The notes under the pieces: generated by a model
What the model saw: only the letters and a program-made list of their open reading frames with translations
What the model was told of the DNA's origin: nothing
The model's database searches: none
Made by a program: the position numbers and the translations under genes
NCBI RefSeq assembly: GCF_001679785.1
Contig: NZ_CP016286.1
Location: forward strand, 1,674,001-1,738,000
From: Rhizobium leguminosarum
Lineage (GTDB): Bacteria > Pseudomonadota > Alphaproteobacteria > Rhizobiales > Rhizobiaceae
Reading direction: 5' to 3'
DNA: 64,000 bases
Part shown: positions 24,902 through 45,983 of the stretch, piece after piece
Layout: the number at the start of each line of letters is the position of its first letter
How positions within the stretch are numbered: position 1 is the stretch's first letter

Positions 24902-27505
24902 TCACCCGTCCAACGTCTCCTTCACCACAACAGCGAGCTGTTTCAGCGAAAACGGCTTCGGCAGGAAGCCAAATTTCGCTTCCGGCGGCAGGTTGCGGGC
25001 AAAGGCATCTTCGGCGTAACCCGAGACGAAGATGAATTTCATGTCGGGATAGGTCTTGCGCAGCTCGCGCAGCAGCGTCGGCCCGTCCATTTCGGGCATG
25101 ACGACGTCGGAGACGACGATGTCGACCTTGCCGTCGAGTTCTTCCAAGATGGCCAGCGCCTCGACGCCCGAGCCCGCCTCGTGCACGGTGTAGCCGCGCG
25201 TTTCCAGCATGCGCTTGCCGCCGCGGCGCACCGCCTCCTCGTCCTCGACGAGAAGGATGACGGCCGATCCCGTAAGGTCTTCCGGCTGCTGCGGCGATAC
25301 CGGCAGCGGCACCACTTCGGCCCCGGCGACGGCGCCGTCGATCGAACCTGCTTCGGCGGCCACCGCCGGCTCCGGAATGTGGCGCGGCAGGAAGACGCGG
25401 AAGGTCGTGCCTTTGCCGACTTCGGATTCCGGCTGGATGTAGCCGCCCGACTGTTTGACGATGCCGTAGACCATGGCGAGCCCGAGGCCGGTGCCCTTGC
25501 CGACATCCTTGGTAGTGAAGAACGGCTCGAAGATCTTGTCCATGATCTCCGGTGCGATGCCGGTGCCGTTATCGGCGACTTCGACCAGCACCATGTCCTC
25601 GGCTGGCATGTAGGAGTAATTGAAGGCCGCGACCTCGGCGGCGGTCAGATTGCGGGTGCGCAGTGTCAGCGTGCCACCCTCGGGCATCGCGTCGCGCGCA
25701 TTGACGCAGAGATTGATCAGCACCTGCTCGAACTGCGAAAGGTCTGTTTTGACAGGCCAGAGGTCGCGGCCATATTGCACGTCGAGCTTGACATTGGTGC
25801 CGGAAAGCAGCCGATCGACCAGCATGCGCAGGTCGCCGACGACATCGGTAAGGTTCAGCACCGAGGGCCGCATCGTCTGCTTGCGCGAGAAGGCGAGCAG
25901 CTGGCGCACCAGCACCGCGGCGCGGTTGGCGTTGCGCTTGATCTCTATCAGGTCGGCAAAGCTCGCATCCGAGGGCCGCGCCTGCAGAAGCAGGTGGTCG
26001 GAGGAAAGCAGGATCGCCGTCAGCACATTGTTGAAATCATGCGCGATGCCGCCGGCGAGCGTTCCCACGGCATTCATCTTCTGCGTCTGCGCCATCTGCG
26101 CTTCCAGCGCCTTCTGCTCGGTCACCTCGACGGCATAGACGATCGCCGCCTCCTCTGGCGCCTCGTCGCTCTGGTCGATGACGGCATTGACATAGAAGCG
26201 GAAATAGCGCGCCTCGTCGGTCGGTGTGCGGGTGTCGAGCGGCGCGATGTCGCCCTGCCGGTCCTTGGCCGCCGCCAGCGCCGCGGCCAGCTGTGGCCGG
26301 TCGCTTTCCTGCACGATGGTTTCAAGATGCGGCGCCTTTTCGAGGTCGTCGCGCGAGACGACGCCGGAGAACATCTTCAGGAACGGCGCGTTGGTCCGCA
26401 GGATGCGCCCGTTGCCGTCGACCGAGGCGATCGCCATCGGCGTATTGTTGAAGAAGCGTGTGAAGCGCATGGCGGCGGCCGAAGCGGACTGGCCGCCGGC
26501 ATCGCTCTTTTCACGCGCCAGCACGATCGTCCGGCTTTCGCCGGGTGCGCCGTCGCGCATCGAGGTGACGCTATGGATGATCTGCACCGGTAGGCTCTGG
26601 CCGTTGCTCTTGCGCAAGTCGAGATCGAGCGTCACGGTCTTCTTCAGGCCCGGTTCGGCCTGCACCGACTGGATCAGCGCCAGTCCCTCGCCCGCCACGA
26701 CATCGCCGATCGTCATCGAGCCCGGCACGAACTTGGTGAGGTCGAGGCCCAGCCATTCGGCAAGCGTCGCATTCAGGTAGAAGATCTCGCCCTTCCTGCC
26801 GGCGGAAAAGAAGCCGGCCGGCGCATGGTCGAGATAGTCGATCGCGTTCTGCAATTCCTTGAAGAAGCGCTCCTGGTCGTCGCGCTCAGTCGTGATATCG
26901 GTGATCTGCCAGATCTGCAGCGGCTTGCCGCCGTTTTCCTCCGGCTGCAGCAGCCGCGCCTTCAGCCGGTACCAATGCGCGCCGGAGCTGTTGCTGCCGG
27001 GCCCGACGGCGCGTAGCAGGCGAAATTCCTCCCGGCCTTCCTTGCCCTCGCGCAGCCCGTTGACCAGCCTGTAGAGCGCCTCGTTGGATTCGCGGTGGCG
27101 CGACAGCAGCGTTTCCAGCGTCTGCACCTCGGTCGCCTTGCGCGCGCCGGTCAGCGCGCCATAGGCGGCATTGGCATAGATGATCCGGCCTTTTTCGTCG
27201 GTGATCAGCGTACCGTCGGGATGGCTGTTGAGGAAGGCGCGCGCCAGGCTGTCGGATTGGCGCTGCGGCATCACTTCGATGAAGCCGATGACCGAAGACA
27301 CCAGGAAGAAGATGCCGACCATGGCGAGCACGCCGAGACCGCCAAGCACGACCTCGTTGTCGAGCGATTTTTTGAAGAAGACGAAGGCGCCGGCAGCCGC
27401 GATCAGCACGAGCGCCAGCAGAAGAATGCGCAAGACCGTGCCAGAACGCCCCCCACGATCCACAAGCGGTGCGTTATAGTCGTCGGCCTGACGCGATTTC
27501 GTCAT
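24902..27505 (-). CDS. cckA: Cell-cycle hybrid histidine kinase CckA
   Basis: CckA is the membrane kinase/phosphatase that feeds phosphate through ChpT to the master regulator CtrA. The 867-residue protein has two N-terminal membrane helices (about 26-43 and 54-75), PAS-type sensory repeats (about 90-450), an H-box [15 protein letters not shown] (near 480), an N-box [15 protein letters not shown]-box [11 protein letters not shown] and [15 protein letters not shown], and a C-terminal receiver with [11 protein letters not shown] (near 800). This matches CckA from end to end. It is divergent from the FliO-like gene. A CtrA box is found in front of the GPR-like gene 11 kb away. Confidence 0.95.
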
Positions 27506-33961: not shown

Positions 33962-33969
33962 TTAACCAT
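33962..33969 (+). promoter_or_regulatory. CtrA half-site
   Basis: TTAACCAT matches the alphaproteobacterial CtrA half-site exactly, 54 bases before the gene at 34023. An eight-base match occurs by chance about once per 65 kb per strand, so it is weak evidence. Confidence 0.3.
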
Positions 33970-34022
33970 TCTTCGGCAAAACTTGCAGCCAGTTCGTGAG
34001 TGGTGTTTGCCAAGGAAAATCC

Positions 34023-34574
34023 ATGTATTCGCGCAAGTTTCTCATCGTATGCGGCTTGGCCGCCGCGGCATTGTCTCCCGTCGCAGATGTCGCACCGGCA
34101 GCCACCGCTGCAACCCGTGACAAGGCTTTCTTCGATTCCGTTGCCGGCTCCTGGAAGGGCCCCGGCGAAATCGTCGCCGGCAAGTACAAGGGCACGAAAT
34201 TCACCTGCAGCCTGATCGGCGAGCCGACCGGCGACAGCAGCGCCGGCATCAAGCTCGACGGCACTTGCCGCGTCGGCGTCTTCAAGCAGCCGATGACCGC
34301 CGTCATCTCTCAGTCAGGCTCGAGCTACAAGGGCAAATTCCTCGACGGCGCCGCCGGCAAGGGCCTTGACGTCGTCTCCGGCGCCGTCAGCGAGGATACC
34401 GTCGTTGTCGGCATCAACCGCGCCAAGCTGAATGGTGCGATGATTGCCCGCGTGCGCGATGACAAGACGATGAACGTCACCGTTTCGGTCAAGGTCGAAA
34501 GCCAGATGATCCCGGTCATCGGCCTGACGCTGACCCGCCAGGTCGACGAGATGGCCGTCGGTTCCATCCAGTAG
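34023..34574 (+). CDS. Small secreted protein of unknown function
   Basis: The 183-residue protein has an N-terminal signal peptide (MYSRKFLIVCGLAAAALSPVA, then an Ala-rich cleavage region) and a mature domain with repeated short beta segments (SWKGPGEIVAGKYKGTKFTCSLIG; SSYKGKFLDGAAG). Two cysteines (in FTCSL and GTCRV) may be bridged. It could be a beta-barrel lipocalin-like fold, but I do not recognise the family. The ATG at 34023 has AAGGAA upstream; a terminator follows. Predicted periplasmic or exported. Confidence 0.65.
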   Translation: MYSRKFLIVCGLAAAALSPVADVAPAATAATRDKAFFDSVAGSWKGPGEIVAGKYKGTKFTCSLIGEPTGDSSAGIKLDGTCRVGVFKQPMTAVISQSGSSYKGKFLDGAAGKGLDVVSGAVSEDTVVVGINRAKLNGAMIARVRDDKTMNVTVSVKVESQMIPVIGLTLTRQVDEMAVGSIQ

Positions 34575-38009: not shown

Positions 38010-38393
38010 TCAGCCGCGGCAGAGCTTCAGGATGAAATTCTCGGCGTCGATGACGGCGGCCCCGAGCGCTGCCGTCGCGCCGGCATCGCCGCCGTTTTCC
38101 TCGACGGCTTCCGCCGTCTGCGACACGCGGAACGCGCCGACCGAGCTTGCCGCGCCCTTCAGCCGATGCGCGGCTGCGCCGATACGGATCGTTTCGCCGC
38201 TGGCAATGTCCTGGAGGCATGCGCGGGCCTGGCGCGCAAACATCTGAAGGACTTCGAGTTCCAGCGTCTTGTCGCCCATCGTCTGCTTTGCGAGATGCAC
38301 CAGATCGATCGGCCGGACCTTGGAGGGACACGGTCCCTTTGCATTATCCGGCGCCTCGAATACGATGTTCAATGCTGCCATCTGGGCTGCCAT
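38010..38393 (-). CDS. Hpt-domain histidine phosphotransfer protein
   Basis: The 127-residue protein is almost entirely an Hpt four-helix domain. The phospho-accepting histidine is in AAHRLKGAASSVGA (about residue 75), preceded by LEVLQMFARQARACLQDIASGE and followed by AFRVSQTAEAVEENGGD. It relays phosphate between response regulators and histidine kinases. It is too short to be ChpT. I start at ATG 38393 (MAAQMAALNIV) because GGGAG is eight bases upstream. It is divergent from the GPR-like gene, sharing a 462-base region with a CtrA box. The partner kinase is unknown. Confidence 0.83.
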   Translation of the reverse strand: MAAQMAALNIVFEAPDNAKGPCPSKVRPIDLVHLAKQTMGDKTLELEVLQMFARQARACLQDIASGETIRIGAAAHRLKGAASSVGAFRVSQTAEAVEENGGDAGATAALGAAVIDAENFILKLCRG

Positions 38394-38496
38394 TGCCAAT
38401 TCTCCCGTCTCTGTCGTCTGCAGTTGCAACAGTTCTGCGACAGGAGGGTGGCCATCACGTTAAATTCCGGCACATTCGGGGCGGAAATCTCGCCAT

Positions 38497-38504
38497 ATGG
38501 TTAA
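38497..38504 (-). promoter_or_regulatory. CtrA half-site
   Basis: ATGGTTAA on the plus strand is TTAACCAT on the minus strand, the CtrA half-site, 104 bases before the Hpt start. It overlaps a TTAACGTCCGTTAA inverted pair. Confidence 0.5.
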
Positions 38505-38562
38505 CGTCCGTTAAATATCCCTAAATTATTGGTTTTTAAGCCGTAGCTAGGATTCAAAGGTG

Positions 38563-38578
38563 TTAACAACGAGTTAAC
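38563..38578 (+). promoter_or_regulatory. Perfect CtrA box
   Basis: TTAACAACGAGTTAAC is TTAA-N7-TTAAC, exactly the full CtrA consensus. A CcrM site (GATTC, 38551-38555) lies eight bases upstream. A nine-base spaced match is unlikely by chance in GC-rich DNA. The adjacent genes are a polar-growth protein and an Hpt protein. Confidence 0.8.
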
Positions 38579-38855
38579 GAGCCATAAATCTCAAGCCTTC
38601 ATTAATTGTGTGAAGAGCCCAGATGTGTCACTACGATACTGGTGGAGCGGGTTTATGGTACGCGCCTTTGCCGAGCGAGTGGATAATGGTAGTGTTTTGA
38701 TACCTTCCGTTTGAAAAAGCGGCTATCTACTCTGAAATGACATGCTTATCCGTCCTTCGTTGGGATGGAGGGCTGGAACGGCAAAGTTGTTCCCGGGTGA
38801 GGCGGAAGCCCAGGATGCGCTGTCGGACTGGCTGACAGTAACGAGGCATAACCGA

Positions 38856-41800
38856 ATGGCGAACAACAAATATAATGAGTCAATTGAGGACAAGGCGTTC
38901 AAGGCATTGGACGAGGCGCTCCAGATCGACTTTAGCAAGGATAACGTACCGTCTCGCCGCGGCGACGCGCCCCAGGCCCCGGAGGCTAATGTGTCTGATC
39001 CAGTAAATGCGCGTAACCAGCAGGCCCAGGAAGAAGCGCAGCGCCGCAGCCGCCGCGGTGCCGCTGGCGAGCAGGCTTCCAGGGGGCCGGCTTTCGCGCC
39101 CGCCAACGATGCCAGCCGCAATACGCCCGCCTCGATCCTGAAATCCTTTGACGGCGCCTCCAGCCGCTCGGCGGTGCGTACCGCCACCCTGTTTTCCGTG
39201 CTTTGGGTCATGGCCGGCCTCGGCCTGATGTCGCTGCTTTATGCTCCGCAGATCTGGCAGATCCGTTCGCTCGCCGATCTCGTCGCCCTGCCCGGCGTCA
39301 TCGCCGGCCTCGTCGGCATCATCATTCCCGTGATGATGTTCTATGCCTTCGCCATCATGATCTCCCGCGCCCAGGACATGCGCAACGCCGCCCGCTCCAT
39401 GGCAGAGGTGGCGTTGCGCCTGGCAGAGCCGGAAACCATCGCCTCCGAGCGCATCATGACCGTCGGCCAGGCCGTGCGCCGTGAGGTCTCGGCCATGAAT
39501 GAAGGCATCGAGCGCACCATCGCGCGCGCCTCCGAGCTGGAAACGCTCGTCCATTCCGAAGTCAATGCGCTTGAACGTTCTTATGCCGACAACGAGTTGC
39601 GCGTTCGCGGCCTCGTCCACGAACTCGGCTCCGAGCGCGAGGCGATCGTCAGCCATGCCGACCGTATCCGCACCTCGATCGGCAGCGTCCACGACCAGTT
39701 GAAGGAAGAACTGTCGCTTGCGACCGAAGAGATCGCGGTGCGGCTTGCCACATCGGGCGAAGCCTTCGCCTCGCTGATCGATACACGCGCCGCGACGATC
39801 TTGGAAAAATCGGACAGCGCCCTGCAGTCGATGGGCAGCCTGCTCGCAGCCAAGACCGATACCCTGCTGCAGACCCTGAACGCATCGGGTTTTGCGCTGG
39901 CCACCGAATTCGACAACCGCCTCGAAGCCCTCTCCGTCAATCTCAACGATCATGGCGAAAGGCTGCTCAGCCAGTTCGAGACGCGCGCCTCGACCATGGA
40001 CAGCAGCACCGAAAAGCTGAATGCGGCGCTGAATGAGCGTACGCACCAGCTCAACGAGATCCTGATCGCCCGCACCCGTGAGATCAACGAGAGCCTGACG
40101 TCAGGCGAACGCACCATCGGCGGCACGCTCGACGACGTGCTGTCGAAGCTGAACAGCGCGCTCGACGAAAAGGGCGCAAGCTTCCGCCAGAGCCTGCAGA
40201 CCACCGCCGACGACGCCGTCATGGATCTCGACGTGCGCTCCGGCTTCTTCGAGGAGCGGCTACAGACGACCGTCGCCCAGCTGTCGACCGCCTTCGACGA
40301 ACGCGTCGCCGAATTCACCAGCGCCTTCGACAAACGCACCGGCTCGCTCGACACCAAGCTGATGGAGAGCCTCGCCCGTATCAACGAGACGCTGACCGGC
40401 GGCTCGGATTCGATCGATGGCATCCTGAATTCCGGCATCGACCGGCTCGGTTCGTCGATATCAGACCAGTCGCTGGCGCTCGCCACTGCGCTCGCCACCG
40501 GCCACGAAGTGCTGGAAAGCACGCTCGGCAGCCGGGCGGACGAAATCACCACCGCGCTCACCAGCCGCACCGGCGAGCTAACCTCGGCGCTGCAAAGCGC
40601 CACCTCGGAAATCGCGCTGACGCTTGCGACCGGCACCTCCGAGCTGCAGAACAACCTTCAGACACGCTCGGCCGAATTCCGCGACACGCTGCGCACCACC
40701 ACCACCGATCTGACGACTGCCGTTGCCGCTGGCACCGAGCAGGTGACCGCTGCCTTCGGCGGTCGCGCCGAGGAGCTGAGCGGCGTGCTTACAGCCCGTG
40801 CGGCCGAAATCAGCGAGGCGCTCGGCACGGCCCACGGCCGTATCGACAGCGTCATGGCAGAGCGCGGCGGCGCATTGCTCGAGGCACTGACCACCCATCA
40901 CGGCCGCTTCGAGGAAGCATTGACGACCCGCTCCGACGCCATCATCAATGCCGTCTCCGGCACCCATGACCGTCTTGCCGAGACGCTCGACGAAAAGGCG
41001 ATGGCGCTTGCCATCTCTCTGAACGAGAGCCAGGCCCGCATCGAGGACACGCTCGAGACCCGCTCCGAAGCTCTGTTGAACGCCGTCTCCGGCACCCATG
41101 ATCGCCTCTCCGAGACGCTCGACGAGAAGGCGATGGCGCTCGCCATTTCGCTCAGCGAAAATCAGGCCCGCATCGAAGATACGCTCGAGACCCGCTCCGA
41201 GGCCTTCCTCAACGCCGTGTCAGGCACGCATGATCGTCTGTCGGAAACGCTGGACAGCAAGGCGGCGGCCCTTACGACCTCGCTCGACGAGCGCCATGCC
41301 CGCATCGAGGATGCGCTTGGAACGCGCGCCGAGGCACTGCTGAACACTGTATCCGGCACGCGCGACCGTCTTGCCGAGACGCTCGACGAGAAGGCGATGG
41401 CGCTGGCCATGTCCTTGAACGAGAGCCAGGCCCGTATCGAGGAGACGCTTGAAACCCGTTCCGCCGCTCTGCTGAAAGCCGTCTCCGGCACCCATGATCG
41501 CCTCTCCGAGACGCTGGACGGCAAGGCGGCAGCTTTTGCCACCTCGCTGAGCGAAGGCCATGCCCGTATCGAGAATACGCTCGAAACCCGCTCCGCAGCC
41601 CTGCTGAACGCCGTCTCCGGTACCCATGATCGCCTCTCCGAGACGCTGGACGAAAAGGCGATGGCACTCGCCATCTCGCTCAACGAAACCCAGACGCGGA
41701 TCGAAGACACGCTGGAAACCCGTTCGGCTGCCCTGCTGAATGCGGTCTCCGGCACGCATGACCGTCTGTCCGAGACGCTGGACGAAAAGGCGATGGCACT

Positions 41801-44800
41801 CGCCATCTCGCTCAATGAGAGCCAGTCGCGGATCGAAGACACGCTGGAAGCACGTTCCGAAGCCTTCCTCAAGGCCGTGTCCGGCACGCACGACCGTCTC
41901 TCGGAAACGCTCGACGAAAAGGCGACGGCGATCGCCGCCTCCCTGAACGAGGGCCAGAGCCGCCTGCAGGATACGCTGGAGAGCCGCTCGGAATCCTTCC
42001 TGAATGCGGTCTCTGCCACCCACGACCGCCTGTCCGAGACGCTCGACGATCGGGCGATGGCGCTTGCCATCTCGCTGAATGAGAGCCAGAGCCGTCTCGA
42101 GGAGACGCTGACAACAGGCGCCGATGCGATCACCAATGCGGTTTCCGGCACGCATGTTGGCCTGAACGGTGTACTCGACCAGAAGGCCGCCGCCCTCGCC
42201 ACCTCGCTGAGCGAAGGCCAGGCCCGCCTCGAGGAAGCCTTGGGCCACCGTACCGCCGCGATCATCGGCGCCGTAACGGCAACCCATAATCGGCTCACCG
42301 ATACGCTCGACGAAAAGACCATGGCGCTCGCCATTTCGCTCGATGATAACCAGAGCCGCTTCGACAGCGTGCTCGAAGCCCGCAGCAACGCCATCATGGA
42401 GGCCGTCTCCGGTGCCGAGGCACGAGTCGCCGGTGCCTTCTCCGACAAGACCGATGCGATCCGCACCGCCTATACCGACAATCAGCAGCGGCTCGAAAAT
42501 GCGCTTTCCGAGCATAGCGCTGCCCTCTCGGACGTTCTCGATGCCGGCGGCGCCCGCTTCGAGGATCTCGTCGGCGGCTTGACCGGCCGCATCGAAGGCC
42601 GCCTGACCGATGCGCATACGCGGCTCGGAGGCCTCGCCGACGAGGCCGCGGCGCGCATCGAGGGCGGGCTTGCCTCTGCCCATGAGCGCATCCGCACGAC
42701 GCTCGAAGACCGCGCCAACGCCATAGACCTATCGCTGAACCAGGCCCATGCGCTGATCAGCGATACGCTGGCCGAACAGGCGACCAGCATCGGCACTTCG
42801 GTGGCGACGAGTGTCGGCATGCTCGAATTGTCGCTGGAGCACCGTGAGGCCGCGATCCGCCAGGCGATCGATGCCGGCGCCCAGACATTGGAAGATCGCA
42901 TGCATGCCGGCGCCGGCCAGATCGCCGGCCGCTTCCAGGAGGCGGCAAGTGCGATTTCGAGCTCCACCCAGGATTTGTCCACCCATCTCGATCGGTCGGT
43001 CGAAAACCTGACGGGCCGTTTTGAAGAAACCGGATCGCGTGTGGAAGCCGGTCTTGCGGCGATCGAGACCCGCATCCGCGACGGCGTCGGCGGCGTTGCC
43101 GAAAAGGTCGAAGCGGCCAGCAGCCAGCTGTCCGGCGTGCTTACCGACGGCGTCTCTCGTCTCGGCGCGCTCAGCAACGACGCCACACAGCGCATCTCGG
43201 CGACGCTCGAAGGCAGTGCCGCAAACCTCACTCAGGCGATCGACAGCCGCACCGCCAATCTGGCCGAGACGCTGGACAGCCGCACCACCAGCCTGACCGG
43301 CGCCATCGATGGCCGCACCGCGAGCCTCGCCGAAACGCTCGACCGCGGCAATGAACGCATCGAGGAACGCCTCTCTACGATGGACCGTGCGTTGACCGTC
43401 GGCCTCGAGGCCGTCAACCGCACCATCGAAGGCAAGGCCGCTGGTCTCGCCTCGACGCTGCGCAACGCAGTTGCCGACGCGGCCCAGGGAATGGAAGGCG
43501 AAGCGACGAGAACCACCGAACTGCTTGGCAAGACCGGCCAGCAATTCGCCGAGGATCTCAATGTGAAAAGCGACGAATTCACCCGCACCATGGATGAACG
43601 CTCGTCACAGATCGTCACTCGCGTCGCCGAAGCTCAGAACCGGCTGGCAAGCCAGGCCGCTGCCGTCGCCCAGACTTTCTCGGAAGCCGGCAACGCCATC
43701 GTCAACAAGGTCGCCGAGGCCGAGACCATCGTCGGCACGCAAGTCAATGCCATCTCCAAGGTGCTGTCGGATGCCGGCCAGTCTCTGGAGACACGCGGCA
43801 ATGCCATCCGCTCGACGCTGTCGGGCGCCGGCAGCGAGATTTCCGCCACCATGGCGGATGTCGACCGGGCGCTCGAAGCGCGCAGCAGCGCCATTCGCAC
43901 CAACCTCGAAGAGCGTGCCCGCGAGATCGATACGACGTTCTCCGACATCGACCGGGCGCTCGAAGCACGCGGTAACTCGATCCGCTCGACGCTTGAAGAG
44001 CGTACTCGCGACCTCAACTCGATGCTATCAGGCCGTTCGGTCGAATTGACGCGCATCCTCGACGAAACGGCCCGTCCGATCATCGACCGGTACACCGATG
44101 CCGGCGAGCAGGCCGCCGCCCGCATCACCGCCGCGGCCAACCTCAGCGCCGACCGTCTGCGCGCCGAAAACGAAGCGCTCGCCAGCGCCGTTGCCGCCCG
44201 CACCGAGAATGTCGCCAATGCCGTCAGCGCCATCGAGAACAGCCTGGTTGGCAACGTCAACGGCCTCGTCGAGCGCATGTCGGAAAGCAGTGCGGCAATG
44301 GCGATGATGATGAACCGCGCCGCCGAGCAGCTGGCCAGCGTCGACGGCCGTCTCGGCGATACCACCACGCGCTTTGCCGACTCCGCCACCAAGGCCGCCG
44401 AAATGGTCTCCGCCTCGACCAGGCTTCTCGAAGGCAAGGTCGACCGCCTCTCCGACATTTCGGGCCAGACGCTGGCGCAGGTCGGCGGCATCATCGGCCG
44501 CTTCGACGAACACTCCAAGGTTCTGACCCAGGCTTCGCAGCTTCTCGGCGCCGCCCAGTCCAACCTCGCCTCGACGCTCGAAGAGCGCGAGAGCGCTCTG
44601 CAGACGCTCTCGGTCGGCCTCGTCTCGCGCTCCGCGGAGATCGAAAAGACCATGCAAGGCCTCGGGAGCATGATCGAGACCGTGTTCGAACGGGCAGAGC
44701 AACGCTCCAGCCAGGTTACCGGCAATTTGCGCGAGGGCGTGCAATCCTCCTTCGCCGATATCGGCCGCATTCTCACCGAAACCGAGAAGCGCGCCCAGGA

Positions 44801-45983
44801 AGCGGCAGAGACGATGCGCGAGGCAATCACCCGCGCCGGCGACGAGGCCAATACGACGATCGACGGCACCTTCGCCAATGTCGAGCGCCGCTCCGGCGAT
44901 CTCTCCAATCGCATTCGCGGCGGTCTCACGGCCTCGCTGTCGGAAGTCGAGCGCATGCTCGGCGAAGCCGGCCGCGCTTCCGACGGCGCCGCCCAGCACA
45001 TGCGCGAAGCGCTGCGCGAGGCGATCGATGACGCCGTCGGCCGCTTCTCCGGCGCCACCGAGGATATCCGCCGCTCTGCGGCCGACATCCGCAGCGAGCT
45101 CGACGCCACCCGCGCCGAACTGAAGCGCGGCGCCTTCGACCTTCCCGAGGAAGCCAAGGAAAGCGCCTCGGCCATGCGCCGGGCCGTCGCCGAGCAGATC
45201 AAGGCGCTGCAGGATATCTCCCAGCTCGTCGGCCGCTCCAGCCAGCAGCTCGAGATCTCCGAGCCCGTCGCCCGCACGCTCGCTCAGGTACAGCCTGCCC
45301 CGCGTCCCGCTCAGCCGGTTGCAGCCCAGCCGCCGCAGCCGGCAGCACCGCCGCCGATCGAAGCGACAGGTCTGCGCGGGACGATCGCACCGTCTGCGCC
45401 GGCTGCCGCCCCCCAGCGCGCCGCGCCGCAGCCTGCCCCCGCTCGCCAGGAAACAGGCCGCCCGGGAACAGATCGCCAAGAGCCGGCCCGTCCGGAAAGC
45501 GGCGGCTGGATCAGCGATCTCCTGCGTGGCGCATCGCGTGAGGACGCCGCCGACGAGGCCGCGGCCGCCCGTGTTCCTGCCCGCCCGGCGGAAACTGCCG
45601 CGCCGGCGGCGCGCAGCAATGACAGCCGCAATCCGCGCCACGTCGTCGAATCGCTGAACTCGCTCTCGGTCGATATAGCCCGCGCCATCGATCACGACGC
45701 TTCGGTCGATCTCTGGCGCCGTTATCAGCGCGGCGAGCGCGACGTCTTCACCCGCCGCCTCTACACGCTGAAGGGCCAGCAGACCTTCGACGAGATCAAG
45801 CGCAAATATGACCGCGAACCGGAGTTCCGCACCGCCGTCGACCGCTATATTGGCGATTTCGAAAAGCTTCTCGCCGACGTCGCCCGCACCGACCCGAACC
45901 GCACGGTGACGCAGTCCTACCTCACCTCGGATACGGGCAAGGTCTACACCATGCTCGCCCACGCCGCAGGCAGGCTCGGCTGA
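38856..45983 (+). CDS. Growth Pole Ring-like giant coiled-coil membrane protein
   Basis: The 2375-residue protein has a soluble N-terminal arm, two transmembrane helices (about 109-130 and 145-170), then about 1950 residues of uninterrupted amphipathic helix, a Pro/Ala/Gln-rich linker (about 2140-2260) and a compact C-terminal domain (about 2260-2375, SRNPRHVVESLNSLSVDIARA to the end). The helical part includes twelve 44-residue repeats. This matches GPR of Agrobacterium, a 2115-residue apolipoprotein-like protein that forms a ring at the growing pole, and the S. meliloti relative RgsE. The start MANNKYNESIED (38856) has GAGG upstream; the frame is open to 38742 but that extension is not conserved-looking. 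Confidence 0.8.
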   Translation: MANNKYNESIEDKAFKALDEALQIDFSKDNVPSRRGDAPQAPEANVSDPVNARNQQAQEEAQRRSRRGAAGEQASRGPAFAPANDASRNTPASILKSFDGASSRSAVRTATLFSVLWVMAGLGLMSLLYAPQIWQIRSLADLVALPGVIAGLVGIIIPVMMFYAFAIMISRAQDMRNAARSMAEVALRLAEPETIASERIMTVGQAVRREVSAMNEGIERTIARASELETLVHSEVNALERSYADNELRVRGLVHELGSEREAIVSHADRIRTSIGSVHDQLKEELSLATEEIAVRLATSGEAFASLIDTRAATILEKSDSALQSMGSLLAAKTDTLLQTLNASGFALATEFDNRLEALSVNLNDHGERLLSQFETRASTMDSSTEKLNAALNERTHQLNEILIARTREINESLTSGERTIGGTLDDVLSKLNSALDEKGASFRQSLQTTADDAVMDLDVRSGFFEERLQTTVAQLSTAFDERVAEFTSAFDKRTGSLDTKLMESLARINETLTGGSDSIDGILNSGIDRLGSSISDQSLALATALATGHEVLESTLGSRADEITTALTSRTGELTSALQSATSEIALTLATGTSELQNNLQTRSAEFRDTLRTTTTDLTTAVAAGTEQVTAAFGGRAEELSGVLTARAAEISEALGTAHGRIDSVMAERGGALLEALTTHHGRFEEALTTRSDAIINAVSGTHDRLAETLDEKAMALAISLNESQARIEDTLETRSEALLNAVSGTHDRLSETLDEKAMALAISLSENQARIEDTLETRSEAFLNAVSGTHDRLSETLDSKAAALTTSLDERHARIEDALGTRAEALLNTVSGTRDRLAETLDEKAMALAMSLNESQARIEETLETRSAALLKAVSGTHDRLSETLDGKAAAFATSLSEGHARIENTLETRSAALLNAVSGTHDRLSETLDEKAMALAISLNETQTRIEDTLETRSAALLNAVSGTHDRLSETLDEKAMALAISLNESQSRIEDTLEARSEAFLKAVSGTHDRLSETLDEKATAIAASLNEGQSRLQDTLESRSESFLNAVSATHDRLSETLDDRAMALAISLNESQSRLEETLTTGADAITNAVSGTHVGLNGVLDQKAAALATSLSEGQARLEEALGHRTAAIIGAVTATHNRLTDTLDEKTMALAISLDDNQSRFDSVLEARSNAIMEAVSGAEARVAGAFSDKTDAIRTAYTDNQQRLENALSEHSAALSDVLDAGGARFEDLVGGLTGRIEGRLTDAHTRLGGLADEAAARIEGGLASAHERIRTTLEDRANAIDLSLNQAHALISDTLAEQATSIGTSVATSVGMLELSLEHREAAIRQAIDAGAQTLEDRMHAGAGQIAGRFQEAASAISSSTQDLSTHLDRSVENLTGRFEETGSRVEAGLAAIETRIRDGVGGVAEKVEAASSQLSGVLTDGVSRLGALSNDATQRISATLEGSAANLTQAIDSRTANLAETLDSRTTSLTGAIDGRTASLAETLDRGNERIEERLSTMDRALTVGLEAVNRTIEGKAAGLASTLRNAVADAAQGMEGEATRTTELLGKTGQQFAEDLNVKSDEFTRTMDERSSQIVTRVAEAQNRLASQAAAVAQTFSEAGNAIVNKVAEAETIVGTQVNAISKVLSDAGQSLETRGNAIRSTLSGAGSEISATMADVDRALEARSSAIRTNLEERAREIDTTFSDIDRALEARGNSIRSTLEERTRDLNSMLSGRSVELTRILDETARPIIDRYTDAGEQAAARITAAANLSADRLRAENEALASAVAARTENVANAVSAIENSLVGNVNGLVERMSESSAAMAMMMNRAAEQLASVDGRLGDTTTRFADSATKAAEMVSASTRLLEGKVDRLSDISGQTLAQVGGIIGRFDEHSKVLTQASQLLGAAQSNLASTLEERESALQTLSVGLVSRSAEIEKTMQGLGSMIETVFERAEQRSSQVTGNLREGVQSSFADIGRILTETEKRAQEAAETMREAITRAGDEANTTIDGTFANVERRSGDLSNRIRGGLTASLSEVERMLGEAGRASDGAAQHMREALREAIDDAVGRFSGATEDIRRSAADIRSELDATRAELKRGAFDLPEEAKESASAMRRAVAEQIKALQDISQLVGRSSQQLEISEPVARTLAQVQPAPRPAQPVAAQPPQPAAPPPIEATGLRGTIAPSAPAAAPQRAAPQPAPARQETGRPGTDRQEPARPESGGWISDLLRGASREDAADEAAAARVPARPAETAAPAARSNDSRNPRHVVESLNSLSVDIARAIDHDASVDLWRRYQRGERDVFTRRLYTLKGQQTFDEIKRKYDREPEFRTAVDRYIGDFEKLLADVARTDPNRTVTQSYLTSDTGKVYTMLAHAAGRLG
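40956..42539 (+). repeat. Twelve tandem 132-bp (44-residue) repeats in the GPR-like gene
   Basis: Residues 701-1228 are twelve consecutive 44-residue units beginning SGTHDRLSETLDEKAMALAI, exactly in phase with no gap. Copies 1, 2, 6 and 7 are nearly identical; copies 10-12 diverge. 44 is 4 x 11, the hendecad period of a right-handed amphipathic helix bundle or coiled coil. No Pro, Cys or Trp occurs in the units. Near identity suggests recent expansion or gene conversion. Confidence 0.92.

Follow-up and report, generated by a model that had tools for sequence, protein, structure and literature searches.

How unipolar growth is coupled to the cell cycle in Hyphomicrobiales is an open question, and a conserved CtrA-type switch before gpr, the gene of the growth-pole ring protein, would directly link the two. 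A candidate for such a switch lies in a stretch of Rhizobium leguminosarum DNA of 64 kb, analysed as a whole and called the window here, between a gpr-like gene and the gene of a phosphorelay protein, hpt. An earlier note on this DNA had seen in the arrangement a cell-cycle-timed module for polar growth, with CtrA and CcrM sites between the two genes. Are these sites more than chance, which of the two genes would they serve, and does the Hpt protein belong to polar growth at all? The genome examined comprises 8.57 Mb, and several records agree at 100% with 240 residues of the N-terminus of its GPR-like protein (R. laguerreae, R. sophorae, R. johnstonii and R. leguminosarum being nearest).

The divergent genes and their products

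The genes hpt (38010..38381, minus strand) and gpr/rgsE-like (38856..45983, plus strand) diverge from an intergene of approximately 470 bp. hpt encodes a predicted Hpt protein of 123 aa with an HRLKG phosphorylation site. Translation probably starts from the ATG at 38381, because an alternative in-frame ATG upstream at 38393, which would give 127 aa, occurs in only 12 of 57 loci (one of the 12, L041, has Leu at the second site). On the gpr side, GAGGC (38843..38847, plus strand), 9 nt before the ATG and invariant in 31/31 same-genus loci, is probably the ribosome-binding site. An RNA element in the gpr leader was searched for in Rfam, which gave no match at E-values up to 1 (38300-38900). The genes next beside hpt encode a 2Fe-2S protein and a pterin-binding enzyme.

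At 2375 aa, the translation of gpr is very long, and it contains apolipoprotein-like domains in many copies (PF01442 in 13 stretches). It resembles in this respect GPR of Agrobacterium (Atu1348, 2115 aa) and RgsE of S. meliloti (SMc00190, 2089 aa), which are very large, have many apolipoprotein-like domains and reportedly localise to the growing pole as a ring or focus (PMC8262873, PMC7327166). Based on domains, length and literature rather than on an alignment to a named GPR/RgsE, the protein studied here is probably the growth-pole ring protein; the homologue names among the candidates scored, e.g., apolipoprotein A1/A4/E domain-containing protein, did not include GPR.

The hpt product matches Pfam PF01627 above cut-off, as do 29/29 orthologues, in which His72 and Gly76 are invariant and the N-terminal tail is conserved. 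The motif H-x-L-K/R-G-A/S was present in 79 of 80 named Rhizobium-type loci. The predicted model (mean pLDDT 82) has helices at residues 27-34, 38-60, 64-81, 84-95 and 100-122 and a disordered N-terminal tail. Both a PF01627 domain with a phosphorylatable histidine (HxxKG) and, in the model, a helical-bundle fold are present, as in Hpt proteins. Foldseek returned plant, fungal and bacterial Hpt proteins as top hits (probability 1.00), none of them at E ≤ 0.001. By profile, the nearest solved structure is Caulobacter ShpA (PDB 2ooc, E-value 2.5e-7). ShpA is a free-standing Hpt protein like the hpt product; the conserved N-terminal tail and the linkage to gpr set the protein studied here apart. 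Reportedly, ShpA is an essential regulator of stalk biogenesis in Caulobacter; its kinase is ShkA and its regulator TacA. ChpT, also a histidine phosphotransferase of an alphaproteobacterial relay, differs from the hpt product in its Pfam family (PF10090, HPTransfase) and is encoded elsewhere in the genome by a separate gene (C1:3005307). PF10090 is absent from the hpt product, for which Pfam gives only PF01627.

Above cut-off, Pfam detects three Hpt domains in the genome, namely the hpt product and two inside CheA proteins. In 26 of 58 cases, a HATPase domain is followed downstream by a receiver domain within 250 bp; ten of the 26, CckA included, look like fused hybrid kinases (equal open-frame lengths), and the rest look like separate response regulators. 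Since the other two Hpt domains sit in CheA while ten fused kinases exist, the hpt product appears to be the only obvious free-standing canonical Hpt partner in this genome, among Pfam matches above cut-off. This agrees with the earlier description of the protein as a relay without an assigned partner. Pfam Hpt matches occur in 53 of 61 genomes of a family sample, several of which have more than one short Hpt ORF; thus, a single free-standing Hpt is not a universal rule.

Conserved blocks in the intergene

A TTAA-N7-TTAAC box, a half-site and a GATTC had been described between hpt and the GPR-like gene, and all three were found there. The intergene holds more conserved blocks than had been listed. 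Block A, GTTAAATTCCGGCA (38459..38472), adjoins hpt; its GTTAAA is invariant in 31/31 same-genus loci, and similar sequence is present in most of 26 further loci of the family. It may be the promoter of hpt or else another TTAA half-site. Block B (38497..38515) consists of ATGGTTAA, including the half-site TTAACCAT on the minus strand (38497-38504), followed by TAAA, and can be read as TTAA-N7-TAAA or as TTAA-N6-TTAA. The window has two copies of TTAACCAT against 0.20 expected; the second is located at 33962-33969, at the edge of a minus-strand ORF (33962-34306). Block C, TTAACAACGAGTTAAC (38563..38578; TTAA halves at 38563-38577), is a full CtrA-type box, TTAA-N7-TTAAC, which reads on both strands and holds the sole TTAA-N7-TTAA of the window (expected 0.04). 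Block D, ATTGT ... TGTGTCACTACGATAC (38605..38639, plus strand), with ATTGT invariant in 31/31 same-genus loci, is the probable core promoter of gpr. Scans for sigma-70 promoters and terminators found none, block D included. As a site shared by a regulon, block D was rejected, with one exact copy and one copy with two mismatches in the genome (control 1). A leader peptide starting at the ATG of block D also appears unlikely by eye, because the third positions of the first codons are invariant and the ATG is absent in several relatives.

The alignment of 31 same-genus intergenes has a mean column conservation of 0.77. Within it, the TTAA halves of block C reach 1.00 and 0.99 and the 7-base spacer 0.68; at the aligned place the box is perfect in 30/31 loci and has one mismatch in the remaining one. 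ATGGTTAA is invariant in 31/31 loci, and blocks A and D are conserved as strongly as B and C. In the second sample, the 80 named Rhizobium-type loci, whose species may overlap with those of the 31-locus set, the half-site within ATGGTTAA is present in 80/80. A perfect box occurs in 77/80, with 30 different spacers, and a box with one mismatch in the other three. The distance from half-site to box is 66 bp in 77/80 loci, 65 bp in two and 55 bp in one, and TGTGNCACTAC of block D, found in 79/80, follows the start of block C at a distance of 61 bp in 79/79. Within Rhizobium, a CtrA-type site is hence found at a fixed place among relatives. The CtrA-type sites are far above chance, rigidly spaced and conserved in both samples, in support of the footprint that had been proposed.

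The CcrM-type site fared differently. GATTC (38551..38555) is kept in place in 7/31 same-genus loci, and the 89 GANTC matches of the window, approximately 0.6 per 462 bp, make a single GATTC no more than chance. Outside the genus, GANTC was found in 77 of 121 loci, below the shuffles (mean 98.7). Because GATTC lacks conservation in both sets, a CcrM role is unsupported; control by CcrM/GcrA via this site was ruled out, and GATTC is probably not part of the switch. Across the window as a whole, GANTC is far rarer than dinucleotide shuffles predict (89 matches, 364 expected). As a separate observation, CTTTGC..GTGGAT..TGGTA.TGTTTT in the gpr leader (38666-38698) is invariant in the 31 same-genus loci, and its conservation is not evident in the 26 family loci.

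The pair and its sites beyond the genus

Among 199 genomes of the family, Hpt was matched in at least 172 and the GPR N-terminus in at least 197, and places were compared for the 150 listed for each. Of the 127 genomes listed in both, 125 have hpt and gpr as divergent neighbours within 2 kb; in G213, the two are on different contigs. In G091 (L340), they are still divergent, with approximately 10 kb of other genes between them. Twenty-three genomes have a listed GPR and no listed Hpt; a profile found a divergent Hpt in 12 of these and none within 3 kb in 11, so that divergent neighbours total 137 of the 150 listed GPR-bearing family genomes. For other families of the order, 24 genomes were used, two of them without an Hpt match. 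Here, the GPR N-terminus is divergent from Hpt in 19 of the 20 loci compared. Judged from this gene order, the pair is ancient and has been kept together in most Hyphomicrobiales genomes examined.

The 11 loci with gpr and no detectable hpt within 3 kb upstream (L317-L320, L322, L333, L335-L339) are informative about the gene served. ATGGTTAA is present in three of them, L317 and, from one genus, L318 and L320, which suggests that the sites probably serve gpr first. At L317, a near-box, TTAACAAACTGTTAG, and a stretch similar to block D are visible as well, so the elements would serve gpr at least at this locus. The absence of ATGGTTAA from the other eight of these loci counts against a role of CtrA.

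The position of cckA had been offered as further support. cckA (24902..27505, minus strand) lies in the neighbourhood, outside the pair, and is identified by the NCBIfam equivalog NF046020 (1469.9 bits, cut-off 1000). Its end is approximately 10.5-10.9 kb from hpt, close to the 11 kb claimed. In 34 same-genus genomes with both genes on one contig the distance is 9.6-16.2 kb, in eight such genomes of other families it is 12-900 kb, and in 15 of the 57 genomes having both, the genes are on different contigs. Since the distances vary between families, the nearness of cckA looks like local, loose gene order and is weak as support.

The sites themselves were followed in 121 further intergenes, i.e., the 26 family loci and 95 fetched ones, the latter including short coding ends. 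The top 8-mers were ACGATACG and TACGATAC (69/121 each), TTAAACTT (53) and ATGGTTAA (50; shuffle mean 0.8, maximum 5), and GTTAA was present in 121/121 loci (shuffle mean 44.3, maximum 58). Two groups can be distinguished. Group I comprises the 51 loci that lack an N8 site; when one mismatch is allowed, TTAA-N7-TTAA occurs in 51/51 of them (shuffle mean 8.7, maximum 18), and the perfect form is present in 7/51. Perfect N6 pairs, arising via block B, are found in 17/51 against a shuffle mean of 0.6; N7 is thus not the sole signal, which counts against CtrA. In group II, 70 of the 121 loci, a perfect TTAA-N8-TTAA takes the place of N7, and this also speaks against CtrA. The N8 element is TTAACnnTATnTTTAA in 58/70; L223, L228 and L234 are examples of loci with N8, usually in this form, where the N7 box would be. 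Most perfect N8 sites would also be counted as N7 with a single mismatch; once N8 is masked, an N7 near-site is left in 6/70 loci. Possibly, regulator or site form changed between lineages. From the site patterns, the case for CtrA appears strong for Rhizobium and good for group I, and it is open for group II.

CtrA, its rivals and a possible role for the Hpt protein

The genome encodes CtrA, ChpT and CckA, and TTAA-N7-TTAAC has 40 strand matches genome-wide against 26 for a reversed control, a modest excess that counts against CtrA. The 21 chromosomal places checked, hpt-gpr included, are all outside ORFs of ≥200 aa, although coding DNA is in any case poor in AT-rich patterns. Among 36 flanking ORFs scanned, seven had an NCBIfam match at E ≤ 1e-25. 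Among these seven are a gene for flagellin, which is preceded by two boxes and whose 277.2 bits fall short of the family's cut-off of 311, and the pilus gene cpaB (223.9 bits), which the pattern also precedes. Others, e.g., rpoD-like and mutL-like genes, are not known as CtrA targets. In S. meliloti, flagellin genes and pilA1 are direct CtrA targets according to the main text of Pini 2015 (PMC4433202). With the CtrA promoters described there the intergene shares the TTAA-N7-TTAA box, the upstream TTAACCAT-type half-site and an encoded CckA-ChpT-CtrA pathway; both site types were looked for upstream and found. It differs in that the target here would be a polar-growth scaffold, and in having two sites at a fixed 66 bp together with block D.

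We consider it fairly probable that the divergent pair shares the intergene as its control region and that CtrA binds there, which would set the time of gpr transcription within the cell cycle. Having received phosphate by way of CckA and ChpT, CtrA would bind the predicted sites in blocks B and C and act on the probable gpr promoter in block D; in the opposite reading direction, its binding may affect hpt as well. CtrA is favoured because the box halves are conserved, the spacer is free, the spacings are fixed and the pathway is encoded. Of the module proposed earlier, the conserved CtrA-type footprint between hpt and gpr stands and the CcrM part does not. A different regulator might bind the conserved TTAA pairs, or these might be parts of both core promoters, with CtrA uninvolved. 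The equal conservation of A and D with B and C fits such an explanation, as do the TTAACCnTATGTTTAA-type N8 elements of distant loci (70/121) and the work on CtrA in S. meliloti, where, in the passages covered here, RgsE, SMc00190 and an Hpt were not found named (PMC4433202). We nevertheless think it unlikely, as halves kept while a 7-base spacer drifts are the known form of a CtrA site, the TTAACCAT half-site is present and the CtrA pathway is encoded. That CtrA acts mainly on hpt, with gpr sharing the intergene by accident, could be argued from TTAACCAT, which faces hpt and is nearer to it (38497, compared with starts at 38381 for hpt and 38856 for gpr). The fixed spacing between box and block D on the gpr side (61 bp in 79/79), however, and the persistence of the half-site in three loci without neighbouring hpt, two of one genus, make this quite improbable.

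Whether the Hpt protein itself has a part in polar growth is a separate matter, and its tie to GPR is so far one of genetic linkage only, as seen in the genomes compared. One hybrid kinase or several would supply the protein with phosphate, and it would hand this on to some receiver. Its kinases may be unrelated to growth, and the pair conserved gene order without a functional link, which we hold to be quite possible, if short of probable. The 11 of 23 gpr loci without a listed hpt match that have no hpt within 3 kb indicate that gpr can manage without hpt nearby, and the 2Fe-2S and pterin-binding genes beside hpt have no visible link to growth. On the other hand, the divergent pair recurs in 19/20 loci of other families, whereas cckA lies at a distance of 12-900 kb, or on a separate contig, in those families.

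The order-wide pair points to a phosphorelay protein for which a connection with polar growth was not found in the open-licence literature, as far as the parts of it covered here extend. Within the same scope, no connection of GPR/RgsE with either an Hpt gene or binding by CtrA was found (PMC4433202, PMC7327166, PMC8262873, PMC9022086, PMC9756655, PMC7987155, PMC2877005 and PMC5964349 included). A further idea, speculative and in our view rather unlikely, is that the Hpt linked to gpr serves, throughout the order, as a phosphorelay hub dedicated to polar growth. Hybrid kinases lacking an Hpt, RdsA-type sensors of division and envelope among them, would all signal through this one Hpt, which in turn would give the growth-pole ring the signal to build, and CtrA, acting at a single divergent switch, would govern how much of both is supplied. 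If this were true, Hyphomicrobiales would have a second, Hpt-centred relay beside CckA-ChpT-CtrA. The hpt product is a candidate partner for hybrid kinases without a known Hpt, e.g., RdsA of R. etli. The RdsA paper was the only one, among the matches listed, to contain a GPR/RgsE term together with an Hpt term. Its authors report no Hpt gene near rdsA, and GPR expression is normal upon RdsA depletion (PMC9022086), which speaks against RdsA acting on gpr transcription.
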